Both the position numbers and the translations under genes were made by a program. Source: Ianthella basta (taxonomy: Eukaryota > Porifera > Demospongiae > Verongiida > Ianthellidae). From it: DNA of 64,000 bases. The notes under the pieces are model-generated. The model saw only the letters and a program-made list of their open reading frames with translations, searched no databases and was not told where the DNA came from. Shown here piece after piece: positions 12,113-56,081 of the stretch. The number at the start of each line of letters is the position of its first letter. Position 1 is the stretch's first letter. The stretch covers positions 7,095,535-7,159,534 of the forward strand of contig OZ025878.1 of NCBI GenBank assembly GCA_964019415.1. Reading direction: 5' to 3'.

Positions 12113-13640
12113 AGAGGTGGTGCATGAGCATAGACACAATTAATAGTGACATACGTAACTATACAATGTGTCATACATTGCCAGTAACTATACACATCCA
12201 ATGATTTGTGCCTTTCGCTGGTTGTACTTAGCACAGGGCGGTATACCATTCTCAGAAACAAGCAGTAAACAGCGGATGGTGCAAATGCATAAGAGAGATG
12301 GCAAACACCTGTAGATACTTCTGTCATGTTGCTTTCCAGCTGACATGACAGTATTTGCCCAACAGCTAATTTCCAAATATCACATGACAGCCACTAACCA
12401 TGGAGTACACCCTGTACTTCTGATCGCACTGCATGCATTCCATTCAAAAAGTCATACAGTGGAATTTGTCTAAGATGGTCACTGAGTTAGGCAGCCACCT
12501 CTCTATAACAGTCAGCCTCCCTGGCACCAAAGAGCACTAAAATATTGCAATCTACCCCTCTAGAGCAGCCACCTCTCTATAAATGTCAGTTAGAACTGGC
12601 CCACAGGTGGCTGTCTTAGGCAGGTTTCCCTGTAACACTGTCACATCATTTGGGCAACGTGTATGGGCAGCTGTAGTACAGTGCCCATCAAACAGGGTCC
12701 ACTGTATATAATATGTATTGCCCCTCCATTTGAACAGTGTGTGCCAGAACAGCTGTAGTATATAATTATAATGGCCTCAGCAGCAAATCACATACTTGTA
12801 ATACTAACCACGAACACAAGGGATGGGCTGTTCCTCTGAGCATACACATGCCTTCCGCATCAATGTGGTAGCACTAGCCATTATTGGCATCACTGTACCT
12901 TAGACACTTGTGTCTCTAATTGTACACATATCCAAGTACTTCATCTGTTCTTCTAGATGCCACTGATGTATAGTAGATGTATAGCATGTTCATCTTTCCA
13001 TTTCGAAGTCAATATCTGCACATTTGTGAAATATTCCGTCCTTCCTCTCCTCCACTGGCAATTTGGAGATGCCATTAATGCTTTAATTGTGTGCAACATT
13101 GCAGACTACTCAGCCTATGAGGATGCTGCAATATGGCTAAATGAACTGAGAATACACCCAAACATTGTCATCATGCTAGTTGGGAATCAGTGTGACCTGA
13201 AACACCACCGGGTTTTGTCCACAGAGGAGGCAAAGGAGTATGCTGAGGAGAACTCCGCTATGTTCATGGAAACATCTGCCAAAGATGGTACAAATGTGGA
13301 GGCAGAATTTCTCAATCTTGTGACAATTAAGTAAGCACTGCACACTACGATCACCCCTACACAATTCTGTGGCAGCTGTTATGTCAAGAACCCTTTACTC
13401 ATCACACAAGAGTAGCATAGACAACCATACCCTATCTCACTGCTATGCATGCACACAGTACGATATACAGCCATGCAAAACTACACCTGACTTTGATGCA
13501 CTTTGTACGTAGTGTGTTACCAGACAGATTGACATGCAGGTTCCTGCCTCCAACACTTTTCAATTTATCTTCCTCCCTCTGGCCTCATAGAAATGTTTCC
13601 AGGTGAGGAAATTGTGTGTCAGAAAAACTTGTTGACTTTT
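11600..13640 (+). pseudogene. Relic of Rab11-like GTPase exons behind gene 1
   Basis: Three pieces lie in gene order. First, the end of a P-loop exon closing at 11678: its last about 30 nt match the end of that exon in gene 4, followed by a GT donor. Second, a G4/G5 exon relic at 13058-13330 ([27 protein letters not shown]4 Lys changed to Gln). Third, a decayed last exon near 13590. No start and no intact P-loop are left. The order fits the downstream half of an ancestral kinase-Rab gene left behind after PTP exons took over the 3' end. Unit 2 shows the same arrangement at 23160-24968. Confidence 0.65.
11884..11934. repeat. (GT)n-rich microsatellite
   Basis: An interrupted GT run. The unit 2 counterpart has grown to about 130 bp at 23412-23541. 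Confidence 0.85.
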
Positions 13641-23159: not shown

Positions 23160-24968
<1,809 letters not shown>

Positions 24969-34693: not shown

Positions 34694-37600
34694 ATGGCGA
34701 AGAAACCTGCACAGGTATCACAGTTCTCCAGTTTGCTCATCTCGGATGTGGTCTTAACCGACACCGAACTCGGTAGAGGGGCCGACGCGACTGTGTACGC
34801 CGTGGAGTGGAATGGCACTACATGTGCCGCCAAGCGCCTGCATAAGATTCTACTCGAAGACGCCTCGCCGGAAGGAGTGGATAGGCTCATCGGCAATTTT
34901 GAGCAGGAATGCTTAACGTGGTCAAAACTTAGCGATCCCGCTGTGGTTCAGTTCCTCGGTGTGTATTTTGAGCCTCGATGTCGCCTGCCGGTGCTCATCA
35001 TGGAGAAGATGGACACCAGTCTTCGGAAATACCTGGAGGGTCACAGCAAGGACGAATTTCCCCTCCATTTCAAGGCATTCGTACTTCGTCAAGTTATCCA
35101 AGCTCTTGCCTATCTCCACGAGCAGAAGCCTCCTCTTGTTCATCACGACTTGAGTCCAAACAATGTCTTGCTGGACGAGAAATCTTTCATGGCCAAAGTG
35201 ACGGACTTCGGTATGAGCCGAGCTGTTAACCCATCCATTCTCACTAGGAAATCCTCCATCAAAGGTACATTGGCATTCATGGCTCCAGAGGCTTTGCAAA
35301 ATCCTCCACGTTACAACGAGAAGTTGGACATCTTCTCCTTTGGCAACATCATCCTCTCCATTCTCACCCATGAGTGGCCCGAACCAGACCCTCCCACATT
35401 TCTCAAGGGAAGCAAGATTGTTGGCCGGAGTGAGCTCCAGCGACGTGAGCGGTATTGTGAGTTGTTCACTGCAGAAGAGAAGAAACTGTATTCCCCCATT
35501 GTCCAACGGTGTTTACAGAATGCACCAGACAAGCGTCCATCCAGTGCAGTGCTACTGCAGGAGCTACAGTACATTAAGGAATCCCTTACTCCTGTTGTAC
35601 AAACTTCCCAAGCAGAAGATGAAGTGCAGCAGAAGACCACAGAAACAGGCGTGGTGAAGTTCTTCAAAGATTTGACCAAGAGACGCTCACAGATATATAT
35701 TGTAGATGCCCGTTCAGAAGGTACGTACCTTACTGTTGCAATTGGGATGTTGGTAAGGTGTGCATGACATTATCTGGATAGTACCAGTAGGGTTATTGTT
35801 TAACCAGTGCCTTATCTGTAGATTTTATGGCACACACATAATACATGGTAGATAATACCAACAACAGAAAGGAACCAGAAACTTATAGGGAAAATTCCAG
35901 GTTTGTAACTTATTCTGAAACATGATGTCGATTTGCATCACCAAATGGCCGCCTATAATGTTTTAAACACAATTGCAATGTGAACGTGCATTTGGAAGCA
36001 GACATCATGGACAAATGCTGTAGAGGTGAATGCGGGATGTCTTTATTCTTTAGTGAGTGAGTAGTATAATTATGTAAAAGGTCTTTAGCTGCACTATAGC
36101 TTATCCTCTAGTATAGCTTTGTATAATTATGCAGACCTTCTCTTTTATTTTGGCTTATTTGGGGCACCGAAGGCGCCCCTACTGTATGTCCGAATAGAGG
36201 CCCGGGCCTCTATTTCTTTCAAGGGGTTTTTGACCCGGCCTCTATTCGAGCCTGGCTTCTATTTGAGCCCAGCCTCTATTAAAATTGATTCCTGGCCATA
36301 TTTCCTATAATTGTAAAATCTCTAATAAGATATGGCTGTCGCCGATCTGCAGACGCTGAGAAGGCATGAGTTCTCAGAAGTCACCGAGCTCACACTTCGG
36401 TCTCGTTCAACGACTTCCATCTCCCTCACATCGGCTTCTTTCGCAGCTCCACTACGTTTGCTCCATAGCTACCTTTAGCTGCAGGAAGAATTAGCTATGC
36501 AGTGCACTTCTCTACAGACTTGGACATCTCTACTGCAGCAGGAACTTCAGTAGGTCACCACGCGTTGCACTGAATTCGATTTGTACCTAAAGTGTGCACC
36601 TCAGATGCTGAAGAGTGCCAGTATGCGAATTCCAGACCTGGCTTCAATTCAGACCCAGCCTCTATTAACGAATCGCTGCTCGGACCCCCGGCTTCTATTC
36701 AAGCCCGGCCTCTATACAAACATATATGATATATTGTTTTCATTAGGTATTCGTATGGCTTCATGTTTGTATTGTATAATTTCTGTCATTGCAATTAAAT
36801 GGTGGCGCTCACGTCGTTCTTTACATAGTTTAAAATCATCCCTAATGGTTTTTCACTGTCTCGGAATTAAAAGAAATGTGTTCATAAACACATGTAAATA
36901 GAGTGATACTAATAAAAGCCTAACAAAGGACTCTTCTGTGAGATACAGCTCCAATTATCACAGATGGACATTGTAAAATGGCCACGCCCGATGCTCTGTG
37001 TTTGCTAGGCTCAAACTCCTCTTTCTTCATATTTCGCCGTGTATCCAGAGAACGCAAAGTGTTTCTAGAACAGCTTTAAGTGAAAGCATTGCAGTAGAAA
37101 GGTTACCTAACTATTCTCCTGTGAGGTACAGCCCAAATACAACTGAGGTTGAACAGTTGACAGAGACAATAATAACAGAGACAAGCGAATCATGGCATTA
37201 CCACTTAGGGTAGCCTTTTTAGCCAGCACACTCCTCCTCCAGGCACAAAGTAACATGTACATACTCATTCAGAATGTTATGTAGATCAAAAGCATTCAGC
37301 AAAGCATTCTATTGCATCTAGATGTGTCTTTCAGGCCATCAGCAATTAGTGCTGCATCCCCAACTATCTGCACTATTGAACTTGGGAGTTCCTAGCAAGT
37401 AGTTTGAGTTAAAGGGTGCCCCAGAGCCCCACAAGTTTTTTATCTTGAAATACTTGTTGTTACTACTGTATTTAAAAGATGGTTTCCTGAATCCGCTGGA
37501 AATCCCCTCGCTATACCCCTTAGAAACAGGCTGCTAAGTGGAATAAAGTTCTTTATTCATCTCCATCCAGCCGAGGACACCCGTACAACAGTGACAGAGA

Positions 37601-40600
37601 AAGAGCCCAACAGTGACCACAGAGTTGCTGGTGTTGGTAAGTATAGACAAGTGGCCAATCATGAAATATGGCCTGTGCAGCAAAGGTAGCATTATTGATC
37701 TCTCTTCATTTCCTCCAGCCAAGGACATTGATACAACATTTAGAGATGATATGACAGCAAGAAAGTTACAAAGCAAAGGCAAGCAGACCTACTTCTTCAA
37801 AGGTATACATATATATGCAATCTAATTCCTTAAGCTATACCAGTTTCTGTTTCTGTTACCTTTCCGAGTGTAACTGATGAGGTTGACTCTACCTTATTTA
37901 TAGCACTGATGGAAGCACTCGCCTTCGGTACAGTACATATATTAGCGTATACGCTTTAACTTTCACGGGGTTAAACTTTTGCAGTTCACAAGTTTTTGCG
38001 TTTTTTGCAGTCTTACTTTTGCAGTTGTAGAGTCTCAAGAAGGAGAAATAAAGCCTTGTGTAAATATTTGCAGGGTGAAACTTTCGTGGATGGTTGCTAA
38101 TCCGCAAAAACAGTGAGAGTTTAACCTCGCAAAAGTCATGGTACACGGATGCATGTGGAAATTATGTTGGCAAAGTTCACAGTTAAAGATCTTAATTGGC
38201 TGAATGTCATTTTGCAAGCTTGGTACAGTTCTTTATTTGTATTCTGCACTGCTGTAACATAATTCACATGATTTCACACACATAATGTGGGACACCAAAT
38301 AATTTGTGCAGAGCTGCTCATAGTAGATGGCATGCCTTGCTGTTTAATTCATTCATTCAAAGTTTAAAAACTTGAGACTGCGTGTTGTGTGCATAGTGTG
38401 GAGTGACTTTAACAGGTCAACTAACTGGGCGTGGCTGTAGTATGCTGTTATTGCTAAATATGAATAAGGGCACTGTTTTAAAGTTGTTCTGTTCCTCCCC
38501 TCACTCTTTCTTCTCTTCCTCCCCTACCTTCCTTTTGGTAGTTGTTATCGTTGGAGATGTTTCGGGTAAATCCAGTCTTGTGGATCGCTTCATATGCAAT
38601 GAGTTCAGCTATAACCCAGTGCCAACAATTGGACTACATTTCAGGATCAAAAGTGTTGAAGTAGACTCCAAAGAAATCAAAGTCAGAATTTGGGACACAG
38701 GTATGTTATGTATATAGCCATGCATCTTTCTTTCTGCCCTGTTTTCCCAATTCCATTTCAATTGTCGTCCACTACGTACTGTTCATGGATTTTCTGTCAC
38801 CAACCTAGCTGTCATGATAGACTAACACATGCACCACTGCTGCTAATGACCAGTTGATGAGTGTGTGTGTGTGTGTGCATTAGTCTCGCGTAGCCAGACC
38901 GCTTCTCTCCTCCATTTTATATTATGACGTCATCGGTTGGGGAGAAGGGTCTGGTACATTGCCTATGCGCCACTTATGCAGAGACCACCCAGAACTAGGG
39001 GGTGATAATTGCATTCTACACCCACGCGTTACTAGGCAACCGCCTGCCCACAACTACCGGTGTTGCACAAGCTGTGGCAATAAAGGCAATGATTCACTCG
39101 GTGCAGAGTTTTCAGCCTTTGCAGTTCGAGCGATTTCGCTAGGCGAAGCCTTTTCGTAGCAGCCTGCCACACGCCGATCGAGTCGTGGCCTTCATTGCCA
39201 CGGCTGGCGAAACACTGGTAGTTGTGGGCGGGCGGTTGCCTGGTAATGCATAGGCATGGAATGCCATTATTACCCCCTAGTTCCAGGGGGTCTCTGCACA
39301 AGCGGCGCATAGGCAATGTACCAGACCCTTTCCCCTGGAAAGTGGTCTGGCTACGCGAGACTATGTGTGCGTGTGCATCATAATGGACAACTGCCACTTT
39401 CTGTTCCTATAGGTGGTCAAGATAGATACCATGACATCACCAGAATGTAAGTTGACAAGTGTGTGTCTTGGGGGGGGGCACACACTCTACTCCGTCCCCA
39501 CACTCCACCCCCTCCCTACACTCCACCTCCTCACACTCCACACCCTCAACACACTCCACACTCCCTCCCCACACTCCACCTCCCCACACTCCACACCATC
39601 CTCCCCACATTCCACAGTCCACTCCTCCTCCCCACACTACTGCAAACTACACTCAGCTTCCTAAATATCATGATGTATAGACATAATGTGCCACTAGCCA
39701 TGGAATCCGGTTCGTAGTTATGGCTCCCACTCATTCTGCCCAAACGTTAGTTATTCTCACACCCTCTGGCCAGTGTGCAAGGCCAGCTGCAATACATACT
39801 CAATGTGCAGTCTCAGCAGTGACTCACATTTCCAAGGACTGTGCTTTGTGAGTGTGTGCTCACCTGTTTACCCTGTAGTGATGTTGGTGGTATTGGCTTT
39901 AAATGGCATCATTGCACCATAGACACATGTTTATGATTGAATATATCTAAGCACTGATTTGTCTGTCACCAATTTATGGTGGGCGTGGCTTGTGTTCATC
40001 TCAAAATGCAATGTTTTCCACTTGGGGACAAATTTGGAATTTGCAAAAATGTGATCCTACAAATTCGTATACTCACTATACTGTATGTTAGTCAGGTGTC
40101 GCGTGACCCCTCCTCGCAGAAGGGTCAGGTTAAGTCTAATACATTGACTTGTGCAGCACGCCACAATGGTTGGCGTGCCTAATCAGATTGCAGGAAAGGT
40201 GTGAAATTATTATCGCTTGCGTGTTCGCAAATGGCAGCAGATCAGAGCATGGACCAGAGAGTGTTATACGCTGCGACGGAAGCCATCTAGCGCCTTGGTT
40301 ATTCTACCATGAAGCCAGAGCAACTTCAGGGTCATGTCTGGCATCGTTTCTGTGAGGGATGTTTTCGCCGTTTTGCCGACCAGCTTCAGCAAGAGCCTGT
40401 GCTACACGTGTCCTACGACAGTGTTCGGCCTGGTGTTGGCGGTCGAAGGGACATCGATAGTCTTTGCTATCGCTCCTTTGACGGCTATTATGAAAGATCA
40501 GGTAAGTGTCGCAAGCCGTCGCACGTACTTGCGGCCACAAGCGAGGCATAATGTTGTGCAATAATTACATTCCACAGTGCATAATTGCATTCCGTGTGGA

Positions 40601-43009
40601 CAAGTCAATGTATTAGACTTAACCTGACCCTTCTGTGAGGAGGGGTCACACGACGCCTGACTAACTGTATATATGGAGGAATTTCAAGGGGGGCAAGATT
40701 TCAGCAAGTGGGGCAAATACCTCATCTTGCCTTCCCATCCCCTTTCTCCCCTTCATGTACATGCAGGTACTGCAGAGGTGCTGATGGTTGTTTGATTGTG
40801 TATGACATTACAAACCATAGTTCCTATGTGGGTGCTACAGGACGTTTGAAGACAGTGAGAGATCGTACACACCCAGACACCCCAATAATGCTGGTTGGGA
40901 ACAAGTGTGATCTCAAACACCGCCGGGAGGTGTCCACACATGAGGCAAAGGCTTACGCTGAGGAGAACTCCATGATGTTCATGGAAACATCTGCCTGGGA
41001 TGGTACAAATGTGAAGGCAGCATTTCTCAACCTTGTGACAGGTCAGCACTGCACGCATCACCTCTAAACAATGCTATGGCAGTTGTCATGTCAACAAAGG
41101 CCAACTTGCACACCGTTCCAAGGTACTTCTCAGCAGCCAGGCATCACAGGGTCATTGCCACGCAGTTTACGCTGCATGCCTTTTTCTACTTGGCTATCTT
41201 TTTGTCATCATTTCTAGGTAGAACTCGCCACTGCAGTCTTACCCCATATATTGACACTGGTTGCTATCGTACTCTAAACACCTTAAGCCAAGAACTGTCA
41301 GTGTCTATGGGATTTACAACACCTTTGAAGCTGATATAGAGGCCCTTGTGCTTTGTACACGGGCCTCTGAAAAATTGGTTTCCCATGGTTTTCTGAATCC
41401 TGTAGACACCTCAAATCTCGGCCTAACCTAAATTTGTAGCATGCCCGAACAGCTATTGCCACATGATAGTCCTGTGTGTCTTCCTGTTGAAACATCATAA
41501 GGACGAAAGCATTGAAAGATGCCACTGTAACTGTCTTCAAGCTCTGTGCTGATATCTAGCTGCTGATTGGGCTACTCTTCATTACAATTGTTGCAAATTC
41601 ATGCAACGAGTGCCTCATTATTATACTTATTTCGAATCACGTGCACGTCACATGCATTACCATGGTAATGTGGAATAGTGCGATTAATGCACATTCTTCA
41701 CTTATTGCCGAGCCGAAAGGCGAGGCAAGTAATCGTGATGCACCGTCGTCCCCCGTTTGAATATATGTATGTACGTATATATGTATATATGTATATATGT
41801 ATATCAGTCCCAGTCAACCTGAGACACCTAGATTACGCAATAGCCCTGTGTTCTCAGCAGGCGCTCACGACAACAAAATGCTCTACTTGGCCACCATCGG
41901 CCACGAAACTGCTCAACACTCCACTGCACCCTGCGTTCAGAATGTTAACGTTGCCCATTGCTCCAGCAAGGGTTACACGCCTGTTGGCAATTCAGCCATA
42001 TTGGCTGACGTCATTTGCCCCGCTTGGCCGGGAACATTTTCACTGTTCCCTCAGGTGAAGCGCACAACGTGCACTGTGTTAGCTCAGCAGGGACGGGCTT
42101 CCCTGCGCAACGCCAAATATGTAGGTGTCGATTGCCCAGCTGCCATCCAGTGCTTCGTCTGGCTTGCTATCTCTTCTTTCTGACAGCCAGTGAAAGCAGA
42201 TTACAGTTCTATTGCCCAAAATGTACTTGCCCTGGCTGAGTTTTAATTACGCTCAAGCACTGTACTTTACTGAAATAGCTAGCTATATACATTCAAGCGA
42301 AGCTGGTTGCATTTTAATGTATGCCCTAGTAATATTATAAACAGGCAATGCTAGCAGTGGACATGTCCTATATACATTCCCTTTTCATTGCTACTCATTC
42401 TGAATCATTACATTACAACTAAATGACCTTACAATACATACACAGGGTTTACTGGGGGGGGGGGGGGGGGGGGCGGGACTTCTTCCTCAAACATTCCAAC
42501 TTCCCCCCAAAAAATTTACCCAGTTGCTGTTTAGAATTTTCATAGATAGAGTTCTCACCTGGCTGCCAGTATAGCTAATACTAAATCTATGCGTAGAGGA
42601 ATTTATTACATATCATTCACACAAGTTCGGACAAGATGAGTGCAAAAATGTTTCCAGAAATGTCATTTTGCCTCTCAGATGATGTCAGAATCAATCTTAG
42701 GGGATAAGAAATTTTAAATTTCCCTGGGGGAGCAAGCCCGTAGAACCCCCTGGCTCTCACGCTCTCCTTATACTAAAACCATGTTCCCCTCCAAAATTTT
42801 GCATCCTAGATAGAACCATGATACATTACATTGCAACTAAACTACTACTGATGTGCTGATGAACCTAGTGGCATGTCACCTGACAAGCTGATTGTCTGCT
42901 GCCTCCACACTTTTCAATTGGTCTTCCTCCCTCTGGCCTGATAGAAATATACCAGGTGAAGAACTCTCTTGGCCAACTTTACCAATGTTCCGCCAGAAAA
43001 GCTTTATAA
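34694..43009 (+). CDS. Gene 3: protein kinase fused to Rab11-like GTPase
   Basis: Exons: 34694-35720, 37571-37636, 37719-37802, 38542-38700, 39413-39446, 40767-41041, 42945-43009. They total 1710 nt (569 aa) with consistent phases. The kinase domain keeps GRGADATV, Lys47, [11 protein letters not shown] and APE. Two linker exons (22 and 28 codons) lead to a Rab fold: P-loop GDVSGKSS, switch II WDTGGQDRY, G4 NKCD, G5 ETSAW, and a last exon starting EIYQ as in Rab11. The P-loop is one residue shorter than the canonical GDSGVGKS. The C-terminus ends SARKAL without the double-cysteine prenylation motif. Large introns hold a MITE, a RecQ-carrying element and other repeats. The ATG follows directly on the repeat block. 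GTP binding is uncertain because of the short P-loop. Confidence 0.8.
36175..36725. mobile_element. Repeat with CCCGGCCTCTATT motifs
   Basis: GAATAGAGGCCCGGGCCTC near the left and GCCCGGCCTCTAT near the right form inverted ends, and similar phrases recur inside. It lies in the first intron of gene 3. The edges are approximate. Confidence 0.5.
36730..37480 (+). repeat. Dispersed 750-bp repeat, copy A
   Basis: It matches 58195-58975 in reverse orientation over most of its length (shared phrases include ACGCAAAGTGTTTCTAGAAC and GGCTAAAAAGGC-type segments). It lies inside a gene 3 intron. No coding capacity is recognised. Confidence 0.65.
38881..39363. mobile_element. MITE with 20-bp TAGTCTCGCGTAGCCAGACC ends
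   Basis: Perfect 20-bp terminal inverted repeats. Inside them long sub-arms are inverted (TACCAGACCC/GGGTCTGGTA, GCCTATGCGCC). It lies in the intron between the P-loop and switch II exons of gene 3. It is related in end sequence to the palindromes at 3350 and 3604. Confidence 0.85.
39476..39650. repeat. CACACTCCACCCCCTCC-type minisatellite
   Basis: Imperfect tandem units of about 17-20 bp just after the switch II exon donor. The same repeat lies at the same intron position in pseudogene 5 (50030-50335), expanded differently. Confidence 0.75.
40091..40661. mobile_element. TIR element carrying a RecQ-helicase first exon
   Basis: The terminal inverted repeats are about 62 bp (GTCAGGTGTCGCGTGACC at the left; GTCAGGCGTCGTGTGACC reversed at the right), flanked by TA. 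Inside, from about 40231, are pieces MAADQSMDQRVLYAATEAI, RLGYSTMKPEQL, DVFAVLPTSFSKSLCY and APLTAIMKDQ, ending at a GTAAGT donor. These match the start of RecQ-type helicases (Walker A region and SPLxxLMKDQ), with a stop and frame changes. It is either a deleted copy of a helicase-bearing transposon or a captured host exon. Confidence 0.65.
41705..42330. mobile_element. Unclassified repeat, copy 2 (about 625 bp)
   Basis: Partner of 17348-17912. This copy has a 128-codon open stretch (41797-42183, pieces AHDNKMLYLATIGHE and [15 protein letters not shown]) that is broken in the other copy. It is not matched to any family I know. It lies in the last intron of gene 3. Confidence 0.65.
42454..42473. 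repeat. Poly-G run (20 G)
   Basis: Twenty consecutive G in the last intron of gene 3. It could form a quadruplex; the length may be a sequencing or assembly estimate. Confidence 0.85.
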
Positions 43010-44121
43010 CTTTTTTGTTATAATGCCAAGTTTATGTATAGCTGTTACATCACTTTACTGTTTCTACATACTTTAAACTGTATTCAATGTTGTTGGATAT
43101 TATCTGTATGAATATATGTTTGCAAATATTTATTCATTCACTACCTTTGTAATATATGGACAAATGTGATATGCAGATAGATGGCATGCAATGTATATGT
43201 TATGTATATACATCCAGCACATGAATATAGTCATACAATAGGTGGCTTCCCCGGCCCTCCTCAGCTGGCACTCCATGCACCTATGTATCTACCTTGACAT
43301 CGAGCACGCGGTGTCACACAGTGTGTACACAATGCCATATACCAGCATTGGTGGTGTCTATAGTGAACTCAGCACATTTTTGTTGACCTCAACTTCGCTC
43401 TCCCAGCTAGGCCATGCCAGACCAGGTCCATAGGCCTTGACAGTTACAGCATTTGGTGTGGGGTGGATCTTCAGTTTGAATGGACTGCCAGGGATGTGCT
43501 CACCAGCACATCTGGAATGCATTGACATAGTATTGACCATGACCCTTGGGCTTGATTGATATATTGTTTTATGAGAGGGGCAACTTCATGTCAGTCTTTC
43601 CATGTGCTGGCACTGATGCATAGTTCTAACTCATGTCATTACACACTATAAACAGCAGCCAGTTCACTTGATCAATACAGCTAGCTAGCTATATGGCCAG
43701 CTGAACATACAGATAAGTATACTGGTTCTATCTTTAAATTTACCCACCAGTGCCACCATAGATACTGGACATGGTTGAATGCCATGCAGTCAATCTCCTT
43801 AATATGTACTTCCCTGCATGCATGTGTTATTACAGACCCAACATATTGTAGTAGATGTTTGCCACTAGTACTGTATGTAGATATAATTAATGCTATAATG
43901 CTATAATGCTATAATGCAGATATAGCTAGCTATCTCTGTCATGACCTATAACTAGTTAGCTAGCCAAATATAGCAATATACATGTGTATGGTTTCATCTA
44001 CCGCACGTGCACGTGCTGCATACATACATGTTGTTGTATTAGCTACCTGTTGAATGGTACAGCTCACTTCTGCCCGATTGGAGGCAGAAATGTATTTTGT
44101 ATAGACCCGTCCCTTTCGAGA
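43010..44121. other. Intergenic region between genes 3 and 4
   Basis: No intact gene is seen. It is homologous to the intergenic DNA of units 1 and 2 (2311-3350 and 13660-14600) and holds the filamin-like relic on the - strand. GATTGG (inverted CCAAT) at 44076-44081 lies 40 bp before the gene 4 ATG. Confidence 0.5.
43230..43540 (-). pseudogene. Filamin-type Ig repeat relic (best copy)
   Basis: On the - strand: AGEHIPGSPFKLKI, then TPNAVTVKAYGPGLA, then EVEVNKNV and, in another frame, EFTIDTTNAG. This is the order of strands at a filamin repeat boundary (GSPF, VxAYGPGL, AEFTVDTxxAG). Breaks interrupt the frame. Related relics lie at 2660-2990, 13890-14230 and 48050-48170. It marks a former - strand gene or exon next to each kinase gene. 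Confidence 0.6.
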
Positions 44122-47100
44122 ATGGCGGAGAAAAAATCTGATCAGTTGTTCAAGTTCTCCGGTTTACTCATCTCGAACGTGAAGTTTACTGACACCGAAC
44201 TCGGTAGAGGGGCTGACGCGACTGTGTACGCCGTGGAGTGGAATGGCACTACGTGTGCCGCCAAGCGCCTACACGAACTTCTACTGGGAGACCATTCCAC
44301 AGGAGGAGCGGACAGGCTCCTAGACAATTTTGAGCGGGAGTGCTTGACATGGTCGAAGCTACGGCACCCCGCTGTGGTTCAGTTTCTCGGTGTGTATTTT
44401 GAGCCTCGATCTCGCCTACCGGTGCTCGTCATGGAAAAGATGGAAACCAGTCTTCGGAGATACCTGGAGGATCACAGCAAGGAGGAGTTTCCCCTCCATC
44501 TCAAGGTGTTAGTCCTTCGCCAGGTGGGACAAGCTCTTGTCTATCTCCATGCGCAGAAGCCTCCTCTTGTTCATCACGACTTGAGTCCTAACAATGTCTT
44601 GCTGAACAAGGACTCTTTTGTGACCAAAGTGACCGACTTTGGGATGAGCCGAGCCATCAACCCATCCATTCTCACTAGGAAATCCTCCATCAAAGGTACG
44701 CTGGCATTCATGGCTCCAGAGGCGTTGCAAGATCCTCCACGTTACAATGAGAAGTTGGACGTCTTCTCCTTTGGTAACATTGTCCTCTCCGCTCTCACCC
44801 ATGAGTGGCCCAGTCCAGAACCTCCCACATATCTCAAGGGCAGCAAGCTTGTTCCCCGTAGTGAGCTCCAGAGACGTGAACGGTATTGTGAAATGTTCAC
44901 TGCAGAAGAAAAGAAATTGTTCTCACCCATTGTCCAACGCTGCTTAGAGAATGCACCAGACAAGCGTCCATCCAGTGCAGTGCTAGTGAGGGAGCTGCAG
45001 CGCATCCAGACATCTACTCCAACAGGTGGTCCTACAGCTACCTCTACTCCTCAACCTTCAGCAGCAGGTGGCAATGTGAAGCAGAAGCCCCAGGGCCTAG
45101 TGGAGTGGTTTAAAGGTCTGACCGCCAGACAGGGAGGCTCACAGGCACATGAATCAGGAGCTAGTTCAGAAGGTAACTCTATTAGGTTTTTGGTAACTTG
45201 GTGAGGTGTGCCGGTATATATCCAGTACCATGCAGTGTACATGGTTCTATATTATCTATAAAGATATACATTTACATGGTATACATACAAATGAATGCAA
45301 ACTACTAAGTTGAGCTATATATTATAATAGCTACTTAGATTGAGGGCAGTTTGCTCTTCCATCTTCTCTAGATTGTACTGCTTCATTGCTTACAGGTATA
45401 TGGGAGATAGATAAATACCACAGTGTTGCCCATGTTGGTAGTTATAGGCATGTGGCCAGTCATCAATGTTGGCCTGTACTAGAATGCTGTCATTGTTGTT
45501 CTCCCCTATCCTCTATCCAGCCAAGGATACTCAGACAGCATTGAGAGAAGCAAGAGAGTTTGAAAATATGAATGGCTATGTGTTCAGAGGTAACCTACTA
45601 CCTTACGTTACCATTTTTTCTTCCTCCTACCAATCAAGCGTGTTTGCATAAATTGTCTGCATGTGGCTTGCTTTACTATGTACCAATGGAATATAGCATG
45701 CTATTTTGGCGGCGGACATGTCTGGTTTTGCTTTGTAACAAATACGTATACTATAATATCTGGCAAGTCTGAACATGCAAATTAAGTTTTAGAGGGGATA
45801 TATGTTACTAGTAATAAACAGAAGAAATTTGATGGGGTCTACTATGCATGGTTACCCTCATCACAACTGCATCAACTCTCTGTGCCACCACTGTCATGCT
45901 ACCCTTCCCCTCCATCCCCCTCTGCAGTTGTTCTCGTTGGAGACTCTGGTGTGGGAAAGTCTGATCTCCTTTCTCGTTTCACAAGCAATGAGTTCAACCC
46001 AGAATCGAAGTCCACCATTGGAGTGAAATTTGCCACCAAACGCATTGAAGTAGACTCCAAAGAAATCAAGGCCCAAATATTGGACATAGGTTTGTATGCC
46101 CATACATCTATTTCTCCTTCCTCCTCTCTTAGCTTCCGTTCCTTCTCACTACTTCATTATTCTGGAATTACCTGCATGTTAATGTACCTACCTACCAGCC
46201 ATGATATGCATCACTGTTGCTAATACGTGTTTGATGTGTACCGTATTCACTCTAAACATTCGTCACCCCTGGTGCAGTGAAAGTTTCGTCTTTTGAGGCA
46301 ATTAGAGCTGGAATGGAGAAGATCGTCGAAGGTGACGAATATTTAGACTTTTCAGACAAAACATTAGAGCGAAGACGAAACGTACATTAGAGAGCTTTTC
46401 AATATGGGTGTTCCTTGCTAAAATGGTCGCTTTCACGTTAACTGTGCGAACAGCAATGCGAGGCTACCGTCCGAACGAGAAGGATCTGGAGACGATTCGC
46501 GATCACTGAACTCCATTGTCGCACCAAAAGGAAAATGAACGACATACACAGCGTCGAGAAGGCTTGTAGATGGACGGAACAATGGACAAAGAAGAAGGAC
46601 AAAGACAACAGCGAGCGTTGTTGGCTTTATTCCTAGGCTTTGTTTCTTGGCCGTCACAACCATATTGCAGGCATTTCCGACGAATATTTAGAACACTTCC
46701 TGTTCATGACGAAAACTAGAGGCCAATGGCGGAAATTAGAGAGACAGGAAGTTCGTCACGATTAGAGTACACTTGAGCATATTTTTTTCCCCTGACGAAA
46801 ATTAGAATGAGGAATTTTTAGAGCTGATACGGTTTATGTGTGTGGGCGAGTGCATGTCTATGTGAGGGTGAGGGTGTATGATGATGCCAACTCTCACTGT
46901 CTACTCTTGTAGCTGGTCAAGAAAAGTACAGAGCCATCACTAGCGCGTAAGTTGGACGTGTACGCTAGTGTTGATGGATGGGTATGGGAGGGGGGGTTCA
47001 GTACACACATGATTGTATAGTGAATCTAATTATTGCAGCAGTGTTACCATGTCTCCTTATAACTTACTATAGTGTCAATATGTCATCACTCTTGACTCCA

Positions 47101-47837
47101 ATCCCACACCTTCCTCACACAGCTACTACAGAGGAGCCGTCGGTGCTTTACTTGTGTACGACATTGCAAATCCTCTCTCTGTTGAGAATGCAGGGAAGTG
47201 GTTGAAAGAAGTGAGAGACCACGCAGGCTCAAACATCGTCGTCATGCTGGTTGGGAACAAGTGTGACTTGAGACACCTCCGAGCAGTGCCCACGGAGGAG
47301 GCAAGGGCATATGCTGAGAAGAACAATCTGTCGTTCATTGAAACATCTGCCCTTGATTCTACAAATGTGGAGGCAGCATTTCACAACATTCTGACGGGTG
47401 AGCAATGCACACATCAATCACCTCTAGCTATATACACAATGCTATGTCAGCTGTAGTGTCAACAAGACCTTTACTAATCACACTGAATAACAAGTCCAGT
47501 GGAGTGAGCATTTCCCTTGTTTCATTGCTACAAGCATGCACAATACAGTGCAACCAAGCCACATACCATACTGAATTATAGAAGTGACTGATCTTAATGT
47601 ATCTCTGCTATCTCTATGCAAATTAAAGTGTAAGTTTTTTGTGCCATGCAAAATTTCACAGATTTTAAGTCACTTTATGATTTCTTTACCTTCCGTCTTC
47701 ATATGTGACAGTGGCATTAACACTATTCCATTTTCCTTCCTCCCTCTGGCCTGATAGAAATTTACTGGGTGAAGAAGTCTCTCAGCCAACCTGACACTGA
47801 TTTGAGTAGTGACCTGTCTTCCTATGTGATATTATAA
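44122..47837 (+). CDS. Gene 4: protein kinase fused to Rab11-like GTPase
   Basis: Exons: 44122-45172, 45521-45589, 45928-46089, 46913-46946, 47123-47397, 47758-47837. They total 1671 nt (556 aa) with consistent phases. The kinase is intact (GRGADATV, Lys, [14 protein letters not shown]) with a Pro/Ser-rich tail. A 23-codon linker precedes a GTPase that is very close to Rab11: P-loop GDSGVGKSD (Gly378-Lys384), [57 protein letters not shown]. The switch II tryptophan-aspartate WDT is LDI. The C-terminus ends in VIL, without cysteines for prenylation. An earlier in-frame ATG at 43984 adds 46 unlikely residues; 44122 matches the paralogues. It is the least changed Rab of the array. A MITE sits in the third intron. 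Confidence 0.85.
46239..46834. mobile_element. MITE with ACCGTAT...CTCTAAA ends
   Basis: Left end TACCGTATTCACTCTAAACA, right end its imperfect complement (TTTTTAGAGCTGATACGGTT). ACGAAAATTAGA and CGAATATTTAGA phrases repeat inside. It lies in the gene 4 intron before the switch II exon. Confidence 0.7.
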
Positions 47838-48239: not shown

Positions 48240-51052
48240 ATGGCGGAGAAACCTGAACAGTTATCAAAGTTCTCCAGATTGCTCATTTCAAACGTGGTCT
48301 TCACTGACACCGAACTTGGTAGAGAGGCCAACTCCAACGTCATTAATATTTTCCTGTTTCTGAATTGTACCATCAAGAGGTTCTGAAGAAGTTGGACACA
48401 AGACCTGCCTTAGTATTACAAGCGCTGATGGAACCACCTGCCTTTGGTATACATTAGTACATATGATTGTTGGTATATGAAGAACTGTTTTCTGGTCTAC
48501 CACTGCAAAACTTGTTAAAACATTATCGTATGTTAAGCACATATCCTTCATTAGGCACACATATTTCTATCCTGCCAAAGCTATAAGTGCTTGTGCTTAA
48601 CAGCTAATCGCTACGGTATGTTTTTATTGCTAACTATAAAAGGGCACTTTATGAAATTGTTCTATCCCTCCCCTCACCCTTCCTTCTCTCCCTCTCCTAT
48701 ACCTCCCTTTATGTAGCCGTTCTCGTTGGAGACTGTTCAGGTAAATCCAGTCTCATGGATCGCTTCATACACAATGAGTTCAGGTTTGACACAGTGCCAA
48801 CAACTGACTTCATGAGCAAAAGTGTTGAAGTAGACTCTAAGTAATCAAAGTCATGATTTGGGACACAGGTGTGTTATAATTATATATATCTGTTCATCTT
48901 TCTTTCTTTGCTGTTTTCCCAGTTCCATTTCAATTCCTTTCCGCTAGCTCTGACTGTTCATCAATCCATGATTTGGAATTTTCTGTCACATGCACCACTG
49001 CTGCTAATGACCTGTCGCATGTGGGACATGGCTATGTAAACAATGCGCAGCCGATTTTGACCTAAGTATTGTGGCTAATATCTCCTAGCAGTTTTGCTGG
49101 ATCTGAGCGGAAGAAGCACCGAACGGAAGCCAAGGGACCGCTCTGTAACACTGTGAATAAGCGTTGTTAATAATACTTTTGTACATCGAAGAATACCGTC
49201 AATTGCAAAGCCACTGAAACAGCAGTAAATGCCGATGTCGCTATCGAGGAAAAGTCACAGCCGCTAGAGAAAGTTGTTAAAGCAATCCGCTGACAACTTA
49301 TAGCAAGAAAACTATCACAACTTGTTGGTGTTCAAAATGTCGGGTCACATAACTCTAGATAGGAAGGATGCGCAGCATTATGCCTCATGCAAAAGCTAGA
49401 GAATTTACTTGACTAACCATTTCAGTGTTCAGTTCGACAAGAAGCCTTCTCATCGACAGCGACACGACGTTTTTCTGAAAGTACAAGTTGAAAGCCTATT
49501 AGCATGTGATCTCACGTGATATTCTCGTGACATTTTCGGAAAATGGCTGACAATCGTTGTGTGCTTCCCGTGATTCGACGGTTCCGCTCGAACGATTCGA
49601 TCAAACTTCTGCGATTTGGCTTCCTCCGTCTTCAAGAACGTACGTAACAGCGAAACACTACATTTTAAGGCCATTTCGCCATTACCTTTTGTCAAATCAC
49701 GCGCATGTCACATGACAACGCTCGCGTAGCCATGGCAACACAGGAATTCACACCTTTCAGGTGTCATACTTCCTTAAGTAAACAAAACAGACATGTCCCA
49801 CATGCGGTTGATGAGTGTGTGTGCGTGCATGTGTAAGTCATATAATATAGACAACTGCTACCTTCCGCCCTGTAGCTGGTCATGAAAGCTTCCATGACAA
49901 CACCAGCACGTAAGTTGGCAACGGTGTGTGTATTGGGAGGGGAGCATACATTATAATTTCGCATTTGTAATGTTAATCTCAATTCTCTTTATTTCATCAT
50001 CATTTCCTCTCTTCACCCCTTTATCCCACACTTCACATCCTTCTCACCCTCCACCCCCCACACTTCACCCTCTCCCTACATTCCACCCCCTCCCCACACT
50101 TCACCCTCTCCTCACACTCCACCCTCTCCCCACACTCTACCCCCTCCCCACACTTCACCCTCTCCCCACTTTCTACCTCCTCCCCACATTCTACCTCCTC
50201 CCCACACTCCACCCCCTCCCCACACTCCACCCCCTCCCCACACTCCACTCCCTCCCCACACTCCACCCCCTCCCCACACTCCAACCCTCCCCACACTCCA
50301 TCCTCTCCCCTCACTCAACACCTCCTCCCCACACTACTTCACACTACACGCAGCTTTCCAAATATCACAATGTATGCACACAATGAGCCACTAGCCGTGG
50401 AGTTTACTAGTGGCTCCCACTCATTCTGCACGTTTCCAAGGAGTGTGATTTGTGAGCGTGTGCTCACATGTTTACCCTGCAGTGAAGTTGCTGGTATTGG
50501 CCTTAACAGCGTCATTGCACCATAGACACGTGTTTATGCTCGTACTTGTCTAAGCACTGATTTGTCTGTCACCAATGTGTGGTGGGCGTGGCTTGTGTTC
50601 ATCTCAAAATGCAATGTTTTCCACTTGAGAAAAGTTGGTCTTTGTGAAAATTTGATCTTACAAATATACCTACTATACTGTACATGTGGAGGGATTTCAA
50701 GAAGGGGCAAGAGTTTAGCAAGTGGGGGAAATGCCTCGTCCTGCCCTCCCACCCCCTTTACTCCCCTCCATCCACAGGTGCTACAGAGATGCTGATGGTT
50801 TTTTGATTGTGTACGACATTACAAACCATAGTTCCTATGCAGATTCTGCTAGATGTTTGGAAACAGTGAGACGTCTTACACACTCACGCATCCATACAAT
50901 GCTGGTTGGGAACAAGTGTGACCTCAAAGACTGCCAGAAGATGTCCACAGATGAGGCAATAGTTTACACTGAAAGTTACTCCACAATGTTCCTTGAGACA
51001 TCGGCCAAAGATGGCACTAATGTAAAGGCTGCATTTCTCAATCTCATAACAG
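48240..51052 (+). pseudogene. Pseudogene 5: truncated kinase plus Rab-like exons
   Basis: The kinase exon stops being similar after about 100 nt ([15 protein letters not shown] to ELGREA). Further exons follow: P-loop exon 48717-48868 (GDCSGKSS, one residue short as in gene 3, with a deletion and an in-frame stop), switch II exon 49876-49909 (AGHESFHD) and an intact-looking G4/G5 exon 50778-51052 (NKCDLKD, ETSAKDG). No last exon was found. Intron content matches gene 3, from which it was probably copied. A kinase protein cannot be made. A Rab fragment is conceivable but unlikely. Confidence 0.75.
50030..50335. repeat. CACACTCCACCCCCTCCC minisatellite
   Basis: About fifteen imperfect units of about 20 bp after the switch II exon of pseudogene 5. 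It is the same repeat as 39476-39650. Pro/Leu- and Gly/Glu-rich ORFs here are artefacts. Confidence 0.85.
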
Positions 51053-51490
51053 GTCAGCATTGCATATATCACCTCTAAACAGTGCTATGGCAGCTGTCAT
51101 GTCAACAAAGACCTTGCTCAACACAAAGTCACTGATGATGCAAGTGTAGCAGAGCGAACTGTTAGCATGTGAGGCCTGTGCACTCAAACCAATATGTCTT
51201 CCTATCTAATATACGTATATATAAAGCTGAAAGTGTCTGTCTGTCTGTCTGTGTGTCTGGGATATGCGCACACATTACTCTGTTTTTGTGTTTTACAAAA
51301 AAATACATTTTATCTGGGAGATCTGAACATTTGGTGAATTAGAGTTGATATTAAAGAAAGTTGAAGTTATGAGAAAGTTGATCATTCATTTGTTGGGGCT
51401 GTTCACTGCACATGGTTACCCTCATCACAGGTACATGAACCCTCTGCTCTACCACTGTCAGGCCACCCTCCCTCCACCTCCTTGCTGCAG

Positions 51491-53108
51491 TTTTTCTCTT
51501 TGGGGACTATGGTGTGGGCAAAACCGATCTTATTTCTTGCTTCACACGCAATGAGGGGATAAGCTTAAAAATTGGAATAAACTATGCCACCAGAAGCATC
51601 GAAGTAGACTCCAAAGTATAGTCAAGGCCCAAATATGGGACACAGGTTTGTATGTCCATGCATCTCTTCTTCCACTCCTTTATTATATTAATTATATGGA
51701 TTTACCTGTATGTTAATGGTATATACCTAGCTATACCTACCTGCCATTATATATTCACCACTGCTGCTACTGACATGCTGATGAGTGTACATGTGTGTGT
51801 GCATGTTTATATGTTTGTGGGGGAGGGGGAGGGGGGTAATTGCATGCATATGATAGTAGACAACATTCATTTTCTGCCCCTGTAGCTGGTCAAGCAAGAT
51901 TTAGACGCAGCCACATTGCGTAAGTTGGCAATGCTGTATTGGTCAGGTGGGAGACTGATTAGTACACATATGGTTGTGTAAAGTCTAATTCTAAATAAAT
52001 AACAGCTGCTGTGTTACAGTAGTACCATGTTCCTTATGTAAAGCTGGGCGGTATGGAAAGTTTCATTCCAGTATATACAATATTCCGGTATACAGTATGC
52101 CAAAAATATCACAGCATACCAGTATGCAGTCTGCTCTTGTATAGGAAAGATATGACACTTTTATTGAAATCCATCAGCTGGCTTAGCCTGTATCACAATA
52201 AAACTGTTTATATGGGACATGTTGGCAGATTGGTGATCTGGTGCATGAGACACAAGGTGCTAAGTCAAGTGATAATGGGATGTCCCAAGCTAGCCCAGGC
52301 AAGGCACCAGATTTTCAGTGGTTTTGCGTAAGCACTCACATATGAACTTGAAGTTTGTAACACGTTAGAGGGATTTTAGAAGGGTTCAAAGTTTAAGCAA
52401 TGGGGTGAATCCTTTCCTCAGCTTCCACCCACGGAATTGCATCATTCCTCCCCCACACTCACACCCTCCCACACCTCACTCCCTCCTCCCCACACAGTTA
52501 CTGCAGAGGAGCCGTTGGAGCTTTACTTGTGTACGACATCACAGATCACCTCACTTATGAGAATGTGGAGGAGTGGCTGGAGATGGTGAGAAAAGGTGCG
52601 GACTCAAACATTGTATTAATGCTGGTGGGGAACAATTGCCACCTGAGACACCTCCGAGCAGTGTCCACAGATGTGGCAGAGGCTTTTGCAAAGAAGAACC
52701 ATATGATGTTCATTGAGACATCTGCCGAGGATGGTACAAATGTGGAGGCAGCATTTCTCAATCTCATAACAGGTCAGCATTGGCATTTGCACACATTAGC
52801 TCCACACAATGCTGTGTCAGGTGTCATGTTAAAAAACCTTCATGCACTCATCACATTGTCAGTTAATACACAGTGGTAGCAGAGTGGACCTTTCCCTATT
52901 TCGCTACCAGACATACACAGAACAGCACAACCAAACTACTACAAATGTAACAACTCTTGTTGATGCATGTCACCAGACAGACTGGCACGCAGGTTGCTGC
53001 CTCCAACACTTTTAAAATTGTCTTTCTCCCTCTGGCCTCAAAGAAATTTACCGGGTGAGGAAATCTCATGGCCAACTTGACCAATGTTCTGCCAGAAAAA
53101 CATTATGA
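51491..53108 (+). pseudogene. Pseudogene 6: Rab11-like exons without kinase
   Basis: Exons: 51491-51645 (GDYGVGKTD, then a frame break near its end), 51886-51919 (AGQARFRR), 52498-52772 ([13 protein letters not shown]4 changed to NNCH, ETSAEDG), 53044-53108 (EIYRVRKS to a TGA). It resembles the Rab half of gene 4, but no kinase or linker exon precedes it, and G4 has lost both Lys and Asp. Probably a dead partial duplicate. Confidence 0.7.
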
Positions 53109-54949
53109 CTTTTTGTTATGCTAGTTAAGATTACATATGTATACGTTACTTTTCTGTTTCTGCACACCTTATAGAATTGTTGTTGAACATTATGTATTTG
53201 GCTACATTTAATATTATGATATTATAGTATTACCCTTTTTTCTTTGTATATTATTATAATTATATTATGACTTGTGAACAAACTTATAGTTTATGATGAT
53301 CTGCAGGTACATAGATGGTATTGTGTTTGGCAGCACAATTTGTGCATGTGCACGTGGCTAGCTAATTAATATGCATGGTTGAAATTGCACATGACTGGAA
53401 CCACCCTTTACTGTGAACGTTGTGCATGAAGTTGAATGGCACTAGATACATGTGCTGCCAAGCACTGCACGAACTGCTACTGGGAGACCATTCCACTGGA
53501 GGAGCGGACAGGCTCCTCGACAATTTCACGAGTCATGGTCGACGTTACACCACCCTGCTGAGGTTCAGTTTCTTAGTGTGTATTTTGAACCTCGCTCTTG
53601 CCTGCCAGTGCTTGTCACGCATGGAGAAGATGGGCACCAGCCTTCAAACATACTTGCATAGAGGAGTTCCCCCTCTCCACCCTTACCCATACCCATGAGT
53701 GGCCCAACCCAAGCAAGACACATATGTCAACGGCAGGATAGTTGTTGGCTGGAGTGAGCTCCAGTGACGTGAGCAGTATTGTGAAGTGTTCACTGCAGAA
53801 GAGAAGCAAATGTTTTCACCAGTTGTCCAACAGTGTTTAGAGAATGCACCAGACAAGCGTCCATCCAGTGCAGTACTAGTGGGGGAGCTACAGCGCATTG
53901 AGGCATCTATTGGCCACACATGTACAATACTCCTGCCTCTACTCCTCAACCTTCAGCAGCAGGAGGCAATGTGAAGCAGAAACCCCAGGGAACAGGCCTA
54001 GTGAGGTGGTTTACAGGTATGACAACCATATGGGGAGGCGCACATGAATGAACCAAAGCTAGCTATAGTTCAGAAGGTAATCAAGGTAACTTGGTGAGGT
54101 GTGACAGTATGCCTTGTACTGTATATAGCAGGTTTACTGGATAGCCTTAAACTTAATTGTGGATATTCTGAATTATATACATACTTGAAATACAAGTTGT
54201 TAAGTGGAGCTACTCTGCATTGAGGGCAAGTTTACTCTTCTATCTGCAGTGCCTGTTCCATCCAGTATAATTATATATGGTTATCATGCTAATTAACTGT
54301 ACTGCAATATATATTGTTTATTGTTAGGAGGTAGATACAGTAACCTATAATTATTTCCATAAATGTTGGTCAGTACAGACAGGTAGTCATTACTGTTCTC
54401 TCCTCATCTTCTCAATATATCCAGCCAACGATATTCAAACAGCGTTGAGCGAAGCCAGGATGATTATGATGATAGCAGGAGGGTTAGATGGTCAACTCAA
54501 GCCTGACTATATATACATAAATTATTAATTCACTGATAAACTACAACTTTATATAGGGTAAGACCATTTTGCGTCAACTTCAGCACTGCTACATTGTTTT
54601 CAGTTATAGGTCTTGTGAACTAAATATTTCATAATTTTTTATGACATATAAATTGGGCAATGCATGTCAAATTTGGAACCGGAGCCATTGTAAAGTGGCA
54701 GCGTACTGGACTTTCCTGTTTGCCAGCTCATAATCACCTGTCTGCATATAAGTTGTGTATACTCAAGAACAATATTGTTTATAGAACTTGCTCACTCCAC
54801 CGAGAATATTGAAATAGACTCCGAAGTGATCCGTACCAATATTTGGGACACAGGTATAGGATTGTATGTCCATGTATACCTCTTCTTCTCCTACTCTCCC
54901 TTCCATCTTCGATCACTGTCTATCACCTCTCTCTCTCCTGTCAACTCTA

Positions 54950-54995
54950 TCATTCCTCCCTCCCTTCCTTCCTCCCTCTTTCCCCCTCTCCCTCC

Positions 54996-55034
<39 letters not shown>
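54950..55034. repeat. CT-rich simple repeat
   Basis: CCTCCCT blocks running into (CT)n, in an intron of pseudogene 7. Confidence 0.85.
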
Positions 55035-55036
<2 letters not shown>

Positions 55037-56081
55037 CTCTCATGTGTACATATGATAATAGACACCTTCACTTATTGCTCCTGCAGCTGGTCTAGAAAGA
55101 CATAGGGAGTTACTCTCCATGTAAGCTGGCAGCATTACCTATCCCACTCATCCTGCATAAACAGTATTATAGCTCCTCACATCTTTTGGGCAGTGTGCAA
55201 GTTCAGCTGTAATACAATGCCACACTCGATGGTCTCAGCAGTGACTCAAACACAATGGGCTGTGCGTTCTGAGCATACATGCACACACCATTTTCAATCC
55301 CTGAACTGACTGTGGTGGTACTGACCATTAATGGCATCGTGCAGTGTAGACACATGCATGTATCTCTGATCTTATATATCTAAGCACTTCATCTGTTTTG
55401 TCCAATGCCACCAATGTATGTATAGTGGGTGTGGGAAATATTATATATATAATATTATATGTTATGCACATCCTGCCAAAATTGCCGACTATATATGGCA
55501 CTATAAATAGATGGATTTCAAGAAGGGGACAAGGTGGTTTAAGATAGTGGGAAAATGACCTATCCTCTCAATGCACCCTTTCCTCCCCTCCATACACACA
55601 TACTAAAGAGGTATAGTGTTGGTGTTTTAATGGTGTATGACATTACAAACCGCAATAGCTATGAGCTCGAGGGTGTTATGATGCTTTTGAAGGAGATGAG
55701 ATTTTGCGCGCCCCCAAATTTTGTCATCATGCTGGTTGGAAATAAGTGTGACCTGGAAGATACCTGAGAAGTGTCCACAGAGGAGGCAAAAGTGTTTGTC
55801 AATGAAACTCTGTATTATTCTTTGAAACATCAGCCAAGGATGTTACTAATGTGGAGGCAGCGTTTCTCAATCTTGTGACATGTATAAGCACTGCACACAT
55901 CATGCACCTCTACACAATGCTGTGGCAGCTGTCATGTCAACAAAACCTTACTCATATCACACTGAATACACAAGGGCAGCAGAGTGCAATACTTTACTAT
56001 ACTATACTTACAATACTGCCTTACTACACTACACTACACCACACCGCACCACACTAAACCACACCACACCCTATATACCTT

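Follow-up and report, generated by a model that had tools for sequence, protein, structure and literature searches.

Do a protein kinase and a Rab11-like GTPase that lie side by side in a sponge genome make one protein or two? The question is raised by a stretch of 64,000 nucleotides from Ianthella basta (contig C11, positions 7095535-7159534, in a genome of 209 Mb and 96 contigs; hereafter, the window), where a sequence-only reading had pointed to two genes, numbered 3 and 4, that seem to fuse a kinase domain to a Rab11-like G domain. Our answer, which we consider moderately probable, is that genes 3 and 4 belong to a tandem family encoding two-domain proteins, kinase-linker-Rab11 GTPase, with the origin and mechanism proposed below.

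Anatomy of the two genes

Rebuilt exon by exon, gene 3 consists of seven exons encoding 569 amino acids, and gene 4 of six exons encoding 556 amino acids, each running from ATG to stop with GT-AG introns and no internal stop (Table 1). As the sequence-only reading had it, the kinase exon is joined in phase 1 to all Rab11 exons through the one that starts with EIY: every junction is GT-AG, the phases fit, the open chains are divisible by three, and the junctions it had placed at 35720, 37571, 37719 and 38542 in gene 3 and at 45172, 45521 and 45928 in gene 4 are exact. Both of the domains it had named are recognized by Pfam in each predicted protein (Pkinase 9.6e-34 and Ras 3.4e-50 for gene 3; 6.6e-34 and 7.1e-59 for gene 4), and the best PDB matches of the Rab half of gene 3 are Rab11B/A (5.8e-50), the Pfam and PDB values of gene 3 coming from a 572-amino-acid variant of the model with three extra residues before EIY. 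The joined transcripts themselves we infer from the gene models. The description of the two genes as intact holds for their open frames but not for the P-loop of gene 3, which is one residue short, or for the tail of gene 4, which is free of cysteine.

The kinase half carries the catalytic residues of a protein kinase, with K47, E72, D152, N157 and D171-F172-G173 invariant in all 14 aligned kinases. In the same 14, the Arg of the HRD motif is replaced by His (HHD), making these non-RD kinases, a type that is common in innate immunity. The best PDB matches include CTR1, IRAK4, TAK1 and RIPK2, which we take to belong to the tyrosine kinase-like (TKL) group, so that the array kinase, by PDB ranking alone, would be of the TKL type. 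The predicted structure of the kinase was too poor for use (predicted local distance difference test, pLDDT, 53), and a search of collections of genome contigs and viral contigs with the kinase alignment confirmed no relative.

In the Rab half of gene 4, the G motifs form the canonical set (GDSGVGKS, the switch I Thr, DIAGQ, NKCD and ETSA), and gene 3 has all of them other than the P-loop spacing. The tail of gene 3 has a single cysteine, eight residues from the end, and so differs from the prenylated tail of Rab11. Because the tail cysteines of neither gene are as in Rab11, both predicted proteins are better described as Rab11-derived than as full Rab11 proteins.

The array and its two kinds of head

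The window lies inside a 310-kb array of copies resembling Rab11, a gene of vesicle traffic, all on one strand, beside a canonical Rab11 gene (C11 6897425-6903318, tail CTCKKT) at the left end of the array. The array sequence read comprises C11 6890001-7090000, 7091501-7095534, the window and 7169501-7208500, together with all 16 kb of contig C45; the C11 stretches 7090001-7091500 and 7159535-7169500 fall outside the counts, as do the minus-strand rows of the exon search. Copies are named K for a kinase head, C for a head consisting of a CARD, a domain type employed in innate immunity, and R where no head was found, followed by the position in kb; genes 3 and 4 are K3 and K4, and the two copies on C45 are K45a and K45b. 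Counted in this manner, decayed or partial P-loop exons and broken later Rab exons included, the C11 array contains 10 whole-domain kinase exons, 13 CARD exons, 25 P-loop exons and 31 later Rab exons, all on the plus strand.

For every one of the 10 kinase exons on C11, Rab exons come next, ahead of any further head: in seven loci both a P-loop exon and a later Rab exon, and in three a later exon only. Each of the two kinase copies on C45 has P-loop and later Rab exons as well. This order, on one strand, in 10 of 10 and 2 of 2 loci is more than chance would produce. Half of the 12 kinase copies (K3, K4, K6904, K7170, K7199 and K45a) have a full set of three G-domain exons, the switch II exon of 34 bp among them; the last exon was also found in K3, K4, K6904 and K45a, and a pattern search found none in K7170 and K7199. 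The complete set of Rab11 G motifs (GxxxxGK[ST], switch I Thr, DxxGQ, NKxD, ETSA) is shared by gene 4 with K6904 and K7199. In K6904, the kinase can be joined to Rab directly in a complete and open chain that ends in a Rab11-type tail, CTCRNT, and in K7199, the direct join is open too. A cysteine pair marks the tails of K6904, the canonical gene and the CARD copy C6957 (CNCN).

The construction of the join can be followed from copy to copy. Canonical Rab11 has a phase-1 first intron immediately upstream of its G domain, and the kinase exon ends in a phase-1 donor in 11 of the 12 copies. Alignment indicates that in eight of the 12, the first exon of Rab11 has been turned into an internal linker, which begins, at the former site of the Rab11 5' leader, with a splice acceptor and ends in EYDYLFK or a variant followed by a phase-1 donor; canonical Rab11 carries a similar CTGTCCAG at that position. 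Linker exon 2 of gene 3 was assigned to this class by alignment with canonical Rab11 exon 1 and the seven other kinase copies. The aligned linkers, of 87, 84, 78 or 69 bp, the canonical exon of 60 bp and a donorless remnant of 96 bp are all stop-free and multiples of three in length, and the old Rab11 ATG is lost or deleted in K7170, K7190, K7110 and gene 4. A linker exon search found none in K6904, K7083, K7199 and K7088, the last of these being partly uncovered.

Table 1. Exons of genes 3 and 4 and related features, in window positions
Feature	Position	Strand	Details
Gene 3 exon 1, whole kinase domain	34694..35720	+	starts with ATG, open frame, phase-1 donor GAAG/GTACGTAC, Pfam Pkinase
Gene 3 linker exon 1	37571..37636	+	66 bp, phase 1-1, flanked by CCAG and GTAAGTAT
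Gene 3 linker exon 2	37719..37802	+	84 bp, phase 1-1, ends TYFFK, Rab11 exon 1 remnant, old ATG kept
Gene 3 P-loop/switch I exon	38542..38700	+	P-loop GDVSGKS
Gene 3 switch II exon	39413..39446	+	34 bp, GGQDRYHDITR
Gene 3 exon with NKCD and ETSA	40767..41041	+	
Gene 3 last exon	42945..43009	+	EIYQVKNSLGQLYQCSARKAL-stop
Gene 4 exon 1, kinase domain	44122..45172	+	phase-1 donor
Gene 4 linker exon	45521..45589	+	69 bp, phase 1-1, old Rab11 ATG deleted
Gene 4 P-loop exon	45928..46089	+	canonical GDSGVGKS
Gene 4 switch II exon	46913..46946	+	34 bp
Gene 4 exon with NKCD and ETSA	47123..47397	+	
Gene 4 last exon	47758..47837	+	cysteine-free
K7099 kinase exon	3777..4845	+	linker exon 5338-5421; later Rab exon near 13059
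K7110 kinase exon	15187..16249	+	linker exon 16792-16869; frame-broken Rab exon near 24785
Mostly decayed neighbors	48240..55877	+	kinase fragments 48240, 53435-53911; linker remnant 54421; Rab exons 48719, 50785, 51517, 52499, 54781, 55621

The CARD exons present another facet of the array. The sequence-only reading had described a kinase-Rab11 fusion in two genes, and while the gene anatomy bears this out, the pattern extends across the array and includes the CARD as a second type of head, which went unmentioned there. A P-loop exon directly follows 11 of the 13 CARD exons, at 0.6 to 9.5 kb, and the CARD donor is in phase 1 in 12 of the 13. PF00619 is matched at E<=0.01 by 10 of the 12 exons scanned; when CARDs were scanned alone, those of C6985 (25.3 bits) and C6937 (27.4 bits) exceeded the Pfam cut-off of 23.9 bits, and the CARD of the full-length C6957 protein, at 21.6 bits, stayed below it. 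A profile search ranks the CARDs of CARD8, Apaf-1 and NOD1 as the closest solved structures, with weak E-values of 0.014-0.024. The CARD alignment comprises 12 of the 13 exons, C6971, whose fourth codon is a stop, having been omitted. The predicted fold is a six-helix death fold that aligns best with the caspase-9/Apaf-1 and CED-4 CARDs and also with those of MAVS and NOD1. The model of C6957 is complete, a CARD-Rab11 protein of 299 amino acids. In C7033, a CARD copy interrupted by a stop, an exon with splice sites between the CARD and P-loop exons resembles linker exon 1 of gene 3 (tblastn 1.6e-4), and this shared linker hints that heads may have been swapped onto existing linkers. Given that kinase and CARD exons both bring phase-1 donors, Rab11 intron 1 looks like a port for new heads.

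Two further observations concern the CARD copies. Apparent CARD-Rab11 genes are located at C11:6.93-7.07 Mb. Those at C11:6986534 and 7063372, 77 kb apart, have identical Rab halves, the latter showing no GT[AG] where its CARD donor would lie, a pair that we read as a recent segmental duplication.

Origin, selection and competing explanations

The scenario that we propose starts with kinase first exons, or CARD exons in the sister copies, that ended up in front of duplicated Rab11 genes. Splicing would then have connected these upstream heads to Rab11 at the phase-1 intron that immediately precedes the G domain, and the first exon of Rab11 would have become an internal linker in many of the kinase copies, with none found in some. 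In the resulting proteins, the Rab11 half may use Rab effectors to direct the kinase or CARD to Rab11-type vesicles, and the nucleotide state of Rab11 could gate the local crowding of these heads. Induced proximity, which operates in the IRAK, RIPK and CARD pathways, is the model for this last step. Because Rab11-like cysteine tails are kept in only some copies, the family would be part membrane-bound and part soluble. Our best guess is that the proteins take part in immune-type signaling, in which the Rab11 half would serve as both address and switch, as suggested by the non-RD kinase, its IRAK4- and RIPK2-like matches and the CARD as the alternative head. A more specific version, in which kinase-Rab11 and CARD-Rab11 proteins of the array are partners within a lineage-specific innate family, the Rab11 switch and Rab11 vesicles uniting the non-RD kinase with CARD assemblies, and the phase-1 intron is an exon-shuffling port, is tentative and, in our judgment, rather doubtful.

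The descent of the Rab halves is complex. In a tree of 24 Rab halves, 22 from array copies and, as the sole outside Rabs, human RAB11A and RAB14 (stops were converted to X in three copies), gene 4 groups with the canonical gene and RAB11A (99/97). The clade of gene 3 (96/90) includes R7144 and four further kinase copies, seven of the nine CARD copies cluster with R7000 (84/73), and K6904, K7083 and K7199 are unplaced, a single origin of the kinase group being weakly supported (60/1). RAB14 stands beside the gene 3 clade (88/83), which by sequence disfavors simple Rab11 descent, although this placement is possibly a long-branch effect; the exon borders, the linker remnant and the PDB ranking favor Rab11 descent for this clade.

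The position of RAB14 is one of numerous observations that count against the fusion scenario, the suggested link to immunity, drawn as it is from domain kinship, being another; most of the remainder are encompassed by three competing explanations. The kinase and Rab11 genes might be separate, duplicated as a tandem unit, with the in-frame joins as leftover splice-like sites. In an array confined to one strand, linked duplication alone would yield the alternation of kinase and Rab exons. The kinase frame continues beyond the donor to a stop, so that a kinase-only protein is possible, and in K7190, the kinase donor is missing. Four of the eight linkers (K45a, K45b, K7099 and gene 3) keep the old ATG, and that of gene 4 has a different in-frame ATG (NMNGYVFR), so that a Rab-only start is possible in both genes. 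A repeat P-loop search of three of the 10 C11 kinase loci, K7099 and K7110 among them, found none, with 1.5 kb of one locus uncovered. We nevertheless regard separate genes as quite improbable: the four linkers without the old ATG still retain their frame, acceptor and donor, and all linker lengths are multiples of three; the phase-1 kinase donor suits the Rab11 intron, whereas two kinase relatives linked to NHL repeats use phase 0; and K6904 has its direct, open join and its Rab11-type tail. Fusion appears to be the best explanation of the phases, linker lengths, start-codon loss and array-wide recurrence taken together, and to this extent, the interpretation offered by the sequence-only reading stands, with the qualification that kinase-only and, in some copies, Rab-only products could be made.

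The other two explanations accept the joins and question the G domain. Conceivably, the array is decaying, such that most copies, gene 3 included, lack a working GTPase, and the kinase is the sole part under selection. The pooled ratio of nonsynonymous to synonymous differences (NG86 pN/pS), calculated from paralogue pairs that are non-independent and may be affected by gene conversion, is 0.32 for the kinase exon as opposed to 0.59 for the later Rab exon and 0.65 for the P-loop exon, pointing to relaxed selection on the Rab half. The ratio is 0.79 for the linker (0.52 in its first 10 codons; 0.89 in the 3' part of the six of eight copies that remain when gene 4 and K7110 are left out) and 1.0 for the kinase tail (in eight of 12 copies, four being left out). 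Several array copies contain stops or frameshifts, Rab exons are broken or missing in many, and the P-loop of gene 3, GDVSGKS, is altered, falling short of GxxxxGK[ST]. However, the ratios of the Rab exons remain below 1, gene conversion could have lowered the kinase value, and gene 4, K6904 and K7199 combine canonical G motifs with open frames, all of which makes this explanation unlikely in our view. The same three copies speak against a pseudo-GTPase scaffold, in which the Rab half would be only a surface for oligomerization or targeting, without nucleotide switching. The shortened P-loop that gene 3 shares with K7083, the NMCD that replaces NKxD in K7190 and K45a, and the weak match GRERFADINK, in which another residue substitutes for Gln, in the switch II position of K45b would fit such a scaffold; given the canonical motifs elsewhere, we deem it improbable for the family.

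Relatives of the family and other observations

Relatives of both halves exist elsewhere in this genome. The kinase family comprises 118 matches, scored out of 812 candidates, with >=65% identity to gene 3, mostly at C11:0.14-4.5 Mb; kinase exons outside the array are 65-74% identical to gene 3. In two of these relatives elsewhere on C11, the kinase is accompanied by a coiled coil and a phase-0 donor, and the next long frame encodes an NHL propeller (PF01436 8.6e-24, with Pfam run on one of the two genes). These genes resemble genes 3 and 4 in the kinase exon and differ from them in the C-terminal half and in the phase of the join. CARD exons of the array type have at least 150 matches genome-wide, with C3, C4, C5, C8 and C17 among the contigs; the 39 CARD genes that PMC12909245 gives for the sponge Dysidea avara offer a rough comparison. 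A query with a kinase-type Rab exon yielded 102 matches, of which the best 29 are in the array (25), on C45 (3) and on C2 (1); an exon on C20 reaches 54% identity over 68 residues, so that similar exons are not confined to the array.

Among known systems, the ROCO proteins (Roc-COR; LRRK2, Dictyostelium Roco4) and DAPK1 resemble genes 3 and 4 in that a single chain carries both a protein kinase and a Ras-like G domain; in DAPK1, the kinase is N-terminal and a death domain is present. However, the G domain here scores far better as Ras than as Roc and has Rab11 exon borders, and with no COR among the Pfam matches (at E<=1 for gene 3 and E<=0.01 for gene 4), ROCO membership was rejected. RAB11A/B share with the array proteins the G domain, the exon phases and a last exon starting with EIY, but have neither a kinase nor a CARD head, and their cysteine tail is unlike the tails of genes 3 and 4. 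The large Rabs, RASEF/Rab45 and Rab44, are likewise longer proteins with a C-terminal Rab, but carry EF hands and a coiled coil rather than a kinase or CARD. The array kinase and CARD heads match IRAK/RIPK-type TKL kinases and CARD adaptors, and to our knowledge, none of these is joined to a Rab. No kinase-Rab or CARD-Rab chain was described in the literature searched, which did not extend to most subscription papers or to general protein databases.

If expressed, the genes of the array would place kinases and CARDs under the control, or at the address, of a Rab GTPase, an unusual kind of signaling protein and a candidate immune signaling system. Because kinase relatives, canonical Rab11, intermediates and finished fusions share one genome, most of the copies lying in one 310-kb array, the steps of exon shuffling (phase matching, loss of the start codon and conversion of a first exon into a linker) may be directly readable here. 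PMC11378527 provides a useful parallel in the shuffling of leucine-rich repeat exons in brown-algal ROCO genes, which are candidate immune receptors. In the sponge Halichondria panicea exposed to lipopolysaccharide (LPS), according to PMC8242945, GTPases and serine/threonine kinases are among the regulated genes, mostly down, and in such a setting, kinase-Rab11 and CARD-Rab11 genes would merit a search. PMC5793068 lists 26 Rab or Rab-like proteins from the sponge Suberites domuncula.

Several minor observations complete the description of the locus and its genomic surroundings. Scans of the 64-kb window for tRNAs and against Rfam gave no match. Stretches resembling miniature inverted-repeat transposable elements, with apparent inverted-repeat flanks as judged by eye, occupy 38888-39365 and 40095-40665 within the introns of gene 3. 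A Rab11-like copy with similar exon borders is found outside the array at C2:14048552-14050144, and other clusters of repeated Ras-superfamily exons are located at C17:2.27-2.70 Mb, C6:2.64-2.74 Mb, C9:2.19-2.22 Mb, C3:4.50-4.56 Mb and C4:0.49-0.50 Mb. A silicatein-like peptide, considered as a sponge marker, has 10 matches in the genome, and both of the two that were read have the cathepsin form CGSCWAF.

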